From assembly GCF_021310995.1 (NCBI RefSeq), contig NZ_CP054150.1, forward strand, positions 1,736,001 to 1,800,000: a DNA stretch of 64,000 nucleotides, read 5' to 3'. This document shows, piece after piece, positions 37,230 to 40,723 of this stretch. The translations under genes and the position numbers were made by a program. The stretch comes from Agrobacterium vaccinii (GTDB lineage: Bacteria; Pseudomonadota; Alphaproteobacteria; Rhizobiales; Rhizobiaceae). Under the pieces are notes generated by a model. The model was not told the origin of the DNA. It ran no database searches and saw nothing but the letters and a program-made list of their open reading frames with translations. The first letter of the stretch is position 1; each line of letters starts with the position of its first letter.

Positions 37230-37727
37230 TTAGCGCTTTACCTCGCCGCGGATCTGCTTGGCAATGCGGTCCAAAACCGCATTTACCAGCTTGGGCTCGT
37301 CATGTTCGAAGAACGCCCGGGCAATCTCGACATATTCGGTCACGATCACGGCGACCGGAACGTCCTTCCGCTCCAGAATTTCGAACGTTCCAGCACGTAA
37401 GATAGCGCGAACGGTGGTGTCGAGACGCGACAGTGGCCAGTCTTCCTGAAGGGCGGAGCGCACCAGCGGGTCGATCTTGGTCTGGTCGCGCACGACGCCC
37501 GCAACGATGGAGCGGAACCAAGATGGATCGGCCTTGAGATAGGTCTCGCCGTCCACTTCCTGACCGAGGCGGTGTGCCTCGTATTCAGCAACCACTTCCA
37601 TCACGCCGGTGCCGCCGACATCCATCTGGTACAGCGCCTGCACGGCAGCAAGCCGCGCAGCACCACGCTGGTTGACGGGCTTCGTGGAAGGCTGACGTGG
37701 CTCGGAACCGTTATCGGTATTGCTCAT
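37230..37727 (-). CDS. nusB: transcription antitermination factor NusB
   Basis: 165 residues from the ATG at 37727. A GTG at 37739 would overlap ribH by eight bases. The all-helical NusB domain shows [19 protein letters not shown], then [23 protein letters not shown] and [12 protein letters not shown], the last two being the RNA-binding and NusE-contact helices. With NusE (S10) it binds boxA RNA in rRNA transcripts. It follows ribH by four bases. The ribH-nusB order is conserved widely. Confidence 0.95.
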
Positions 37728-37731
37728 GCTT

Positions 37732-38178
37732 TCAGCCACCCAGCTTTTTCTTCAGTTCGATCATGGTCAAGGCAGCGCGGGCTGCAAAGCCACCCTTGTC
37801 CTTGTCGGACCGGCGCACGCGCGCCCAGGCCTGATCTTCGTTCTCGACAGTCATGATGCCGTTGCCGATCGCAAGCGATTCACTGACCGCGAGGTCCATA
37901 AGCGCGCGCGAGGATTCATTGGAAACGATGTCGAAATGGTAGGTCTCACCGCGAATGACCATGCCAAGCGCAACGAAACCGTCATATTCCGTGCCTTCAT
38001 CGTCAGCAGCATCGAGCGCCATGGCGATGGCAGGTGGAATTTCCAGCGCGCCGGGAACGGTGATGATGTCATAGGTGGCGCCAGCTTCATCGAGCGCGAA
38101 CTTCGCGCCATCGAGAAGAGCATCGGCCATATCGTCATAAAAACGTGCTTCCACGATGAGAAGATGAGGCTTGGACAT
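37732..38178 (-). CDS. ribH: 6,7-dimethyl-8-ribityllumazine synthase
   Basis: 148 residues. It condenses the pyrimidine from the RibD pathway with dihydroxybutanone phosphate. [11 protein letters not shown] and [22 protein letters not shown] are the substrate loops. The usual C-terminal PI-x-F-G-V-L-T is here [18 protein letters not shown], a shape typical of one of the two rhizobial RibH types. Lumazine synthases assemble as pentamers or capsids. The 148 bases between ribE and this gene contain no FMN-riboswitch-like sequence that I can see. Confidence 0.94.
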
Positions 38179-38326: not shown

Positions 38327-38944
38327 TCAGGCAGATTGGGTCGGAAATTCCGCAAGCCTGGCCGCGTAGCGTGCCATCGTATCGACCTCGAAATTCACGA
38401 AATCACCCGCCTGCCGGTCGCCCCATGTGGTGACGGACAGCGTGTGGCGGATGAGGAGGACATCGAAATCCGTACCGTTGACGGCGTTGACGGTCAGCGA
38501 TGTACCATCAAGCGCGATGGAGCCTTTCGGTGCAACGAATTTCGCAAGATGCTGCGGTGCCCGCAGGCGAATGCGCACGGCCTCGCCTTCCGGTTCGATG
38601 GACAGTATCTCGGCCTTGTCATCCACATGACCTGAAACGATGTGCCCGCCGAGTTCGTCACCGATCTTCAGCGCCCGCTCCAGATTGACGCGGGTGTCCT
38701 TGGTCCAGCTTGCGATGGTGGTCAGACGAAGCGCCTCTTCCCAGGCCTCCACCTCGAACCAGCGCTCGTTGCTTCCCTCTTCCGGCAGCTTCGTGACGGT
38801 CAGGCACACACCGCCATGGGAAATCGATGCGCCGATGTCGATCGTTTTGGGGTCATAGCTCGTCGCAACGCGCAGACGCACACCTTCAGGCAGCGCCTCA
38901 AGCTCGGACACGGTTCCGACGTCGGTGACAATTCCGGTAAACAT
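38327..38944 (-). CDS. ribE: riboflavin synthase alpha subunit
   Basis: 205 residues, two repeated lumazine-binding barrels. The start is MFTGIVTDVGTV, the first-repeat motif. ISHGGVCLTVT and GGHIVSGHVD belong to the first half and active site, and SIALDGTSLTVN is the second-half counterpart. It dismutates two lumazines to riboflavin and the pyrimidine. The ATG shares one base with the ribD stop (TGATG), so it is translationally coupled to ribD. Confidence 0.95.
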   Translation of the reverse strand: MFTGIVTDVGTVSELEALPEGVRLRVATSYDPKTIDIGASISHGGVCLTVTKLPEEGSNERWFEVEAWEEALRLTTIASWTKDTRVNLERALKIGDELGGHIVSGHVDDKAEILSIEPEGEAVRIRLRAPQHLAKFVAPKGSIALDGTSLTVNAVNGTDFDVLLIRHTLSVTTWGDRQAGDFVNFEVDTMARYAARLAEFPTQSA

Positions 38945-40239
38945 CAAAGCGGCCTTTCAAATTCAAAACAGCGATCCGGCCCGTAAGCGGTTTCGCCGAC
39001 AAATGTAAATTCCTCTGGAATATCGGACCGCTTGACCGGGCTTTCAAGCCCGCCCGCGCCGACGATCATGGGGCTTTCGAACAGCAGGATACGGTCTACG
39101 AGGCCGGCTTCAAGGAAGGATTTCGCGACGTGAGCGCCACCTTCGACCAGAAGTTCAGATATTCCGCGGTTGGAGAGCAGGGTTAGGAGAGATTGGAGGG
39201 TTTCGGTTTCGAGGATTTCGACGCCCGAGGCTTCGAGGTGTTGGCGTTTGTGGGTGGCGCTACCCCCCTCTGCCCTGCCGGGCATCTCCCCCACAGGTGG
39301 GGAGATCGACTCGCGGTTGGCTGATCGCTCCACTCCGGAACCTGTATCGGACGCGTCGACCATTGATTCATTTTTAGCGTCTGACCCTGAGGGTGAGGTG
39401 TCCAGCGATGCCAGCGCCCAGCCAATCTCCCCACCTGTGGGGGAGATGTCCGGCAGGACAGAGGGGGGTAGCTCCGCACTCGACCCCAGCCGCGCCACAA
39501 CCACACCCACATCCCCAGCCGTCCGCACCAACGTCGACCCGACCGGCAACTCCAACCGCCGATCCAGCACAATCCGCACCGGCGAGCGGTGCTCAAGCCC
39601 GGCAATCCGCACCGTTAACTCAGGGTCATCGGCAATCGCAGTCCCAATCCCAACCAGAATAGCACCACACCGCGCCCGCAGCTCATGCACGGCGTGCCGC
39701 GATTCAGGACCGGTGATCGCCACCTGCCCTGCCCCAACCCGGCCAATCATACCATCCGCAGAAATTGCAATTTTTAAAATCACATGCGGACGTTTCTTCA
39801 TCTTCCGCGTGAGATATCCGGCCATCAAACGCTCGCCCTCACGGCGCAGCAAGCCGGTTTCAACCGCAATCCCGGCATCCCGCAAAATCTGGTAGCCGCG
39901 CCCGGAAACCCGCTCGTCCGGGTCATCGACGGCGACAACCACGCGAGCCACACCGAAATCCACCAGCGCGTTGGCGCATGGCGGTGTTCTGCCGAAATGG
40001 GAGCAGGGTTCGAGGGTGACATAGGCCGTCGCTCCCCTCGCCGCTTCGCCCGCGATCTCCAGTGCCTGGCGCTCCGCATGCGGGCGTCCGCCAATCGCCG
40101 TCACGGCTTCGGCGATGATCTCGCCATCTTTGACAAGAACACAGCCGACGGAGGGGTTGGTATCTGTGAGGCCTGTATGGCTGCGGGAAATCTCGATTGC
40201 CCGTGCCATGAACCGTTCATCATCGGCGCGGGTCGTCAA
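38944..40239 (-). CDS. ribD: bifunctional riboflavin deaminase/reductase with in-frame repeat insertion
   Basis: 431 residues from a TTG at 40239 (GGAG nine bases upstream); family members are usually near 360-380. The deaminase domain (1-145) has the zinc site His54 and Glu56 in PHAERQALE, and Cys79 and Cys88 in EPCSHFGRTPPC. The reductase domain (150-431) begins RPHVILKIAISADGMIG and ends LLVEGGAHVAKSFL...DRILLF. Residues of about 256-327 are unlike any RibD. They are encoded by the palindromic repeat at 39259-39472 and are rich in S, G, E and P. The frame stays open, so the protein may remain active with a surface loop. Operon with nrdR and ribE. Confidence 0.92.
   Translation of the reverse strand: MTTRADDERFMARAIEISRSHTGLTDTNPSVGCVLVKDGEIIAEAVTAIGGRPHAERQALEIAGEAARGATAYVTLEPCSHFGRTPPCANALVDFGVARVVVAVDDPDERVSGRGYQILRDAGIAVETGLLRREGERLMAGYLTRKMKKRPHVILKIAISADGMIGRVGAGQVAITGPESRHAVHELRARCGAILVGIGTAIADDPELTVRIAGLEHRSPVRIVLDRRLELPVGSTLVRTAGDVGVVVARLGSSAELPPSVLPDISPTGGEIGWALASLDTSPSGSDAKNESMVDASDTGSGVERSANRESISPPVGEMPGRAEGGSATHKRQHLEASGVEILETETLQSLLTLLSNRGISELLVEGGAHVAKSFLEAGLVDRILLFESPMIVGAGGLESPVKRSDIPEEFTFVGETAYGPDRCFEFERPL
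39259..39472. repeat. palindromic repeat element inside ribD
   Basis: Two 48-base arms (39259-39306 and 39425-39472) are inverted copies matching at 46 of 48 positions. They begin GCTACCCCCCTCTG and end GGGGAGAT. The arms enclose 118 bases. Each arm itself holds a smaller CTCCCC...GGGGAG palindrome. The element is read through in the ribD frame without a stop. Its base composition, with runs of C and G, differs from the gene around it. Such elements normally lie between genes in Rhizobiales. Confidence 0.85.
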
Positions 40240-40243
40240 GGTT

Positions 40244-40723
40244 TTACGCTCCAGCGTCCGTATCACGCGCAATCTTGGCGTTGATCTCAGCAATCACGTT
40301 CTCGAAATCTTCCGCATGGCTGAAATCGCGGTAGACGGATGCGTAGCGTACGAATGCCACGTCATCGAGACCTTTCAGAGCTTCAAGCACCTGCAAACCG
40401 ATTTCTTCCGATGGAATTTCCGTCTCACCGGAGCTTTCCAGACGTCGCGCAATGCCGGACACCGCTCGCTCGATGCGATCGCGATCCACCGGGCGCTTGC
40501 GCAGCGCGATCTCGAAGGACCGCACCAGCTTTTCGCGATCGAAGGGCAACTTGCGGCCGCTCTTCTTAATGACCATCAACTCGCGCAACTGCACGCGTTC
40601 ATAGGTCGTAAAGCGACCGCCGCAATCCGGGCAGATGCGCCGCCGGCGGATGGAGGTGTTATCCTCTGCCGGACGCGAGTCCTTGACCTGCGTATCTTCC
40701 GAGCCGCAAAAAGGGCAGCGCAT
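40244..40723 (-). CDS. nrdR: transcriptional repressor NrdR
   Basis: 159 residues. The N-terminal zinc ribbon is [17 protein letters not shown] with [16 protein letters not shown] (C-x2-C...C-x2-C). The ATP-cone follows: [21 protein letters not shown] and [10 protein letters not shown]. It senses ATP/dATP and represses ribonucleotide reductase genes. It lies between glyA and ribD with gaps of 13 and 4 bases, in the usual alphaproteobacterial order, so it is probably co-transcribed with them. Confidence 0.96.

Follow-up and report, generated by a model that had tools for sequence, protein, structure and literature searches.

A dispersed palindromic repeat is read in frame within ribD of Agrobacterium, and its spacer is inverted between species

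Can a palindromic repeat of the kind scattered between genes become part of a core biosynthetic enzyme, and what happens to its sequence there? The ribD gene of Agrobacterium vaccinii raises this question in the window, by which we mean the whole stretch of 64,000 nucleotides that was analysed. Most known cases of palindromic repeats that code for protein come from Rickettsia. The original prediction, made from the letters of the sequence, had described two 48-base inverted arms around a gap of 118 bases in the reductase half of RibD, and this geometry proved exact: the arms match at 46 of 48 positions, 118 bases apart, whereas single-base shuffling of the 2 kb around them, repeated 500 times, gave at most 21/48 at the same place. 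A repeat search could extend the arms to 66 nt at 86% identity (39256-39321 and 39410-39475), and the inner 23-nt motif is found within the window in these two arms only, with 0 expected. The ribD frame crosses the insert without encountering a stop, as had also been proposed, and the residue range given for the insert at that time, 256-327, fits the numbering of the 431-residue form of the protein. The transcript of the element could form a very stable hairpin, with a predicted energy of -154 kcal/mol. The features are collected in Table 1.

Table 1. Features of the ribD region and of the palindromic element, in window coordinates
Feature	Position	Strand	Remarks
ribD	38944..40293	-	TTG start at 40293 (449 aa) or at 40239 (431 aa)
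nrdR	40244..40723	-	neighbour upstream of ribD
ribE	38327..38947	-	riboflavin synthase
ribH	37732..38178	-	lumazine synthase
nusB	37230..37739	-	
In-frame palindromic element (RIME-like)	39259..39472	-	214 bp, read as ~71 residues
Arm 1 (coding order)	39425..39472	-	read as ...ELPPSVLPDISPTGGEI
Arm 2 (coding order)	39259..39306	-	read as ISPPVGEMPGRAEGGS
Inner palindrome of arm 1	39425..39447	.	23 nt, ATCTCCCC-7-GGGGAGAT
Inner palindrome of arm 2	39284..39306	.	23 nt
Spacer	39307..39424	-	118 nt; inverted relative to L033, L034 and L035; direction as in L032
GANTC site (GACTC)	39308..39312	.	adjoins an arm; mark of family polarity

The protein was identified as RibD with the TIGR00326 profile (299.7 bits, for a cut-off of 156.35), and its NCBIfam and Pfam matches are split into two stretches. 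The neighbouring nrdR, ribE, ribH and nusB genes are all on the same strand as ribD. A search of the whole genome returned one full ribD match only. The closest named relatives of the source genome are Agrobacterium rubi, Rhizobium sp. Leaf262 and A. rosae.

Palindromic repeats of the same family as the ribD element are dispersed through its own genome. The arm core, ATCTCCCC-7-GGGGAGAT, is present there in 90 copies at two mismatches or fewer, the reversed control giving 0, and there are at least 155 matches to the ribD arms; the arm search thus bore out the reading of the insert as a palindromic repeat with many other copies. We took 43 stretches around family copies from this genome, 40 of which harbour paired arms and could be aligned with the ribD element. 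The arms are 88-91 bases apart in 36 of these paired elements and further apart, by 119-140 bases, in the other four, and the corresponding spacing in the ribD copy is 141. GANTC sites are found in 29/40 paired elements (4.65 vs 1.18 per kb in the stretches taken). Arms are also present in 33 of 39 genomes of the genus and in Rhizobium loci. RIME elements comprise two large palindromes, and a multi-copy presence in Rhizobiaceae with palindromic arms, as expected of RIME, is what we observed; the dispersed family apparently corresponds to the repeats called RIME. The name RIME goes with papers that cite Osteras 1995. An Rfam search yielded nothing above cut-off. Nearly all the family copies are on contig C1 of the genome, with one paired copy on C2 among the matches listed.

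The insert itself was sought in the 39 genomes of the genus. One match runs through it in 25 of them, including G027, in which it contains three stops, and 13 others yield a two-piece match; in the last one, A. rubi G019, the match ends at a contig end inside the insert. The six genomes devoid of any arm all fall among the 13 two-piece ones, the remaining seven of which have 1 to 31 arms. G079 was left uncounted, as it aligns across the insert region, yet its locus L185 has no arms. Beyond the genus, the insert is found at the identical place and in the same frame in eight RibD proteins of Rhizobium or Rhizobiales, which have the frame pattern PPSxLPxISP...GEMPGRAEGG in common with those of Agrobacterium, and two further loci carrying the insert with its arms are in G210 and G256, under another genus code. 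Each of the 32 intact inserts that we measured has an arm spacing divisible by 3 (84, 108, 111, 120, 129 or 141 bases), whereas the usual intergenic spacing, 89, is not. The ribD frame appears broken in the insert region of L055/L075 (Agrobacterium genomosp. 13), and only a remnant of the insert is left in L074. In contrast to the picture drawn by the original prediction, the insertion is not peculiar to its own genome and occurs in much of Agrobacterium and part of Rhizobium. It had also set its reading against two outcomes, a segment common among RibD orthologues with no repeat relatives elsewhere, or a second functional ribD beside a silent one: the insert is indeed common in the genus, yet its repeat relatives are abundant elsewhere and the full ribD match is single.

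We compared the spacers of the ribD inserts both directly and as reverse complements, and found them to be inverted between species, an unexpected result that lay outside the picture drawn by that prediction. In the window's clade, the window's own locus (L031) and one other have the spacer in one direction, and three have it in the opposite direction (Table 1); among the loci of the A. tumefaciens complex, eight carry the plus type and 11 the minus type. The same DNA stretch is read as protein from either strand in different species. The non-coding strand of the window's insert aligns with the coding strand of L063 over nearly its full length, whereas the good match between the two coding strands is confined to the arms, and the peptide encoded by the window's insert matches the strand opposite ribD in G031. 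As reverse complements, the spacers of L033 and L034 are 86.5% and 78.8% identical to that of the window, respectively, with 82-86% identity for the ribD flanks. The window's spacer scores 148 against the inverted spacer of L034 and at most 43 against the 40 other elements of its own genome; since it is thus specific to ribD, the flip was made in place. Against spacers of the tumefaciens complex it scores no more than 31, so that the flips in the two clades were separate events. In L031, L033 and L034, the flank-side bases of the arms (T/A in arm 1, C/G in arm 2) are identical regardless of spacer direction, and since they keep their side, the breakpoints are placed inside the arms. We regard the ribD insert as a new form of protein-coding palindromic repeat, with a spacer inverted between species.

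The reading that we consider highly probable is that a RIME-like repeat was inserted long ago into a loop of RibD and tolerated in frame, and that its spacer was flipped in place, after which alleles were exchanged. By a single ancient insertion, the two-armed element would have entered the reductase domain, in a loop that connects a beta strand to an alpha helix, and would have stayed because it could be read in frame as a flexible, surface-type loop tolerated by the enzyme. As the arms are near-perfect inverted copies, recombination between them, or template switching, could turn the segment in between and leave flanks and frame untouched; those flips that leave the frame open would survive. 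From the sequence comparisons, in-place flips of the spacer appear to have occurred in both clades, one or more in that of A. rubi and A. rosae, to which the window belongs, and one or more among the members of the A. tumefaciens complex. Among the latter, both orientations may later have been exchanged between species by ordinary recombination of ribD alleles.

The number of flips was estimated on trees. On a tree of the flanks and of ribD minus the insert (29 loci), orientation requires 9 changes, no fewer than with shuffled labels, whereas on a tree of the spacers set in the same direction (19 loci of the complex) it requires two (bootstrap 1-3), against 6.4 in shuffles. We read the difference between the two counts as few old flips followed by allele exchange between species, and frequent, recent flipping in the A. 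tumefaciens complex is unsupported. The spacer of L054 is 94% like that of L037, though the flanks of L054 are nearest to those of L043. In the window's clade, two changes is the best count, and one change is not rejected (AU p 0.30). We also assigned orientation labels to 82 of the 121 proteins collected, 45 of them minus and 37 plus. For pairs of a plus and a minus protein, 0.80 of positions are compatible with a common inverted DNA, as against 0.595 for pairs of the same direction. The nine closest plus-minus pairs fit at 0.794, no better than distant pairs (0.804), so that neither these labelled proteins nor the spacer tree gave any sign of recent flipping.

These results bear on whether the segment might be an intragenic inverton that still switches in living populations, yielding two RibD isoforms, or ON and OFF states where the inverted frame has a stop. 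Such switching would accommodate the presence of both directions among close relatives and in proteins whose identity outside the insert reaches 99.1% (P0028, P0062), as well as the inverted frame being open in the window and in 18/30 inserts, and interrupted by a stop in 8/8 plus-type inserts of the A. tumefaciens complex. Nevertheless, 18 open frames in 30 is what chance gives (19.0 expected by codon shuffle, 23.2 by synonymous resampling), which led us to reject selection for openness in both directions; together with the few flips on the spacer tree and the unimproved fit of the closest pairs, it makes ongoing switching quite unlikely. A related proposal, which we likewise hold to be unlikely, is that in the window's clade, whose inverted frame is open as well, living populations continue to flip the spacer, each cell line having two RibD loops that alternate, and that other coding copies in Rhizobiaceae, among which a cobN copy is reversed between two strains, are likewise small protein-altering inversions. 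If this were true, the switching arms would constitute a genome-wide set of such inversions in Rhizobiaceae.

Rather than in-place inversion, the two orientations might reflect separate insertions, or the replacement of the ribD element by other copies of the genome. Intergenic spacers do turn over fast, and their orthologues are often not the best match. As an intergenic control, we used 22 orthologous copies of two sister genomes, found by their flanks (7 of 68 loci, which lacked paired arms, were not used). Polarity is reversed at 10 of them, the same at 10 and undecided at two, and in 16 of the 22 pairs a spacer from another, non-orthologous copy is the better match. Intergenic flips are thus indistinguishable from replacement; ectopic spacer replacement is likely at these copies, and their polarity reversals were dropped as proof of inversion. 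By contrast, the spacers in ribD are distinctive in both length and sequence, as the scores of 148 and at most 43 given above illustrate, and the arm bases next to the flanks stay on their side in either spacer orientation, which renders replacement quite improbable at this locus. ribD is the site where in-place inversion can be shown.

Returning to the old insertion with in-place flips, its tolerance by the enzyme was addressed through selection and structure. RibD is under strong purifying selection upstream of the insert, with a dN/dS of 0.05 in both orientation groups, and the dN/dS values of the spacer are 0.42 and 0.58 in the two groups. Downstream of the insert, the value of 0.55 for the minus group, against 0.14 for the plus group, came from rows that had not been realigned, and was set aside. 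The sense frame is open in 30/30 inserts tested, with L055, L183 and L035 left out. An AlphaFold2 model built with 40 sequences has a mean pLDDT of 81.8, and values below 50 are found only at residues 254-325, between a strand (246-251) and a helix (328-337), all in the 431-aa numbering. The model superimposes on the solved RibD structure 3zpc with a TM-score of 0.87 by target. This combination of pLDDT pattern and normal RibD fold suggests that the insert is a flexible linker on an otherwise ordinary enzyme, and the surface loop first proposed for it is modelled here as a flexible or disordered loop. RibD with the insert is probably active, to judge by the dN/dS values and the fold model.

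It is very unlikely that ribD is decaying while riboflavin is supplied otherwise. A broken frame in L055 and a reductase-only paralogue on contig C2 might be taken as signs of decay, but dN/dS is 0.05 in insert-bearing ribD genes, the genome has a single full RibD match, and the frame is kept in all 30 inserts tested, a set from which L055 had been excluded in advance. The C2 paralogue (L285:1427-2260) is a protein of 277 aa with a RibD_C domain and no deaminase domain, scoring below the NCBIfam cut-offs, and it might cover part of RibD function; by eye, the genes beside it resemble glycosyltransferase and methyltransferase genes. Lastly, the length of the loop at the insert position also varies among arm-less RibD proteins, but an ordinary low-complexity loop that is palindromic by chance, not a mobile repeat, is extremely unlikely and already refuted, since the arms recur as a repeat family in many other places in the genome, and the genomes of the genus without the family are without the insert.

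Family copies are read in frame in other genes as well. A second in-frame copy in the window's genome (L141/L273, C1:188892-190595) is located between a probable signal peptide and a di-haem oxidoreductase (DHOR) domain (PF06537). Among 10 long open reading frames spanning other copies of this genome, the DHOR frame is the only one with a Pfam domain match and coding sequence on both sides; a DUF559 match in another of them is downstream of its repeat copy. The DHOR copy is common to this genome, G018, G022 and G031, and in the other 35 of the 39 genomes the alignment starts at residue 65 or beyond. In this region, undetermined bases in G030 are bordered by both ends of the element, and the G019 sequence stops at a contig end. 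The four DHOR copies are in one direction, with no flip in six pairs. In A. rubi G019 (L056/L104, L278), two contigs end inside repeat copies, one in ribD and one beside the di-haem oxidoreductase gene.

In other Rhizobiaceae, domain-bearing frames read through copies in the N-terminal part of FtsY (L108, L109, L111 and L137, from Rhizobium and relatives), through two in-frame copies in cobN of L114, and through an in-frame copy in an aminotransferase class IV gene of Shinella fusca (L128). For ftsY, no flip was observed in the four pairs that align clearly, and the L111 pairs were undecided. Between the cobN genes of L114 and L122, whose flanks are 92-93% identical, the polarity of copy 1 is reversed and that of copy 2 is the same; we did not take copy 1 as proof of in-place inversion, as the comparison consists of two orthologous copies only. 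L112, L119 and L122 resemble the ftsY, cobN and aminotransferase loci, and the domain runs covered the latter only.

The ribD element shares traits with several known systems. Intragenic inversion has reportedly been followed within genomes and populations by Chanin and colleagues (Nature 2024). In intragenic invertons, a segment within a gene, between inverted repeats, is found in both directions (cited in PMC11868660). The ribD segment likewise lies inside an open reading frame, between inverted repeats, and occurs in both directions among close relatives, but its inversion is seen between species only and its arms stem from a dispersed repeat family. As for Rickettsia palindromic elements (RPE; Ogata and colleagues 2000, 2002), copies of these short repeats are found between genes and in frame in conserved protein genes, where they are thought to occupy tolerated places in proteins, and inversion is unmentioned in the passages on them in these sources (PMC10969869, PMC2229807). 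The ribD element similarly keeps the reading frame of a conserved protein gene. It differs from RPE, to which we liken it by description and not by sequence, in its host group, in its architecture of two arms and a central spacer, in the inversion of this spacer between species and in being common to much of a genus.

Rhizobium-specific intergenic mosaic elements (RIME; Osteras, Stanley and Finan 1995) are described among the dispersed repeats and palindromes of rhizobial intergenic regions (PMC2573895, PMC2245857). The ribD family is also dispersed in Rhizobiaceae, and it was assigned to RIME by description and not by the published RIME1 or RIME2 sequences; RIME were named and treated as intergenic, whereas the ribD copy is inside a gene. 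The CIR elements of alphaproteobacteria (Chen and Shapiro 2003) have two inverted-repeat arms, a linker and a GANTC site, and are portrayed as not found inside genes and as having stops in all six frames (PMC2229807). The ribD family, compared with CIR by description and not by sequence, is also two-armed and mostly has GANTC sites, but its ribD copy is inside a gene with an open sense frame. In Nematomorpha, inverted repeats with both arms coding occur in protein-coding genes, which in that case are animal mitochondrial genes, and the parts of the source seen contain no statement on a dispersed family or a flipped spacer (PMC6649704). In the open literature searched, to which our claim of novelty is limited, no earlier report of a coding palindromic repeat in ribD with an inverted spacer was found.

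Here a family named for its intergenic sites is maintained in frame, within a core biosynthetic enzyme, over much of the genus Agrobacterium. As the arms are inverted copies of each other, the intervening segment remains readable after being turned round, and one DNA stretch has thus provided two unrelated peptides for one enzyme. The locus represents a natural experiment on the origin of new protein sequence and on the tolerance of enzyme loops.

Elsewhere on contig C1 of the window's genome, four family copies (L163, L167, L172 and L180) are joined at the same base to a common flank, which encodes a transposase of the IS110 family (PF01548 and PF02371, the domains having been tested in L163). 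The family palindrome seems to be targeted by IS110 elements.
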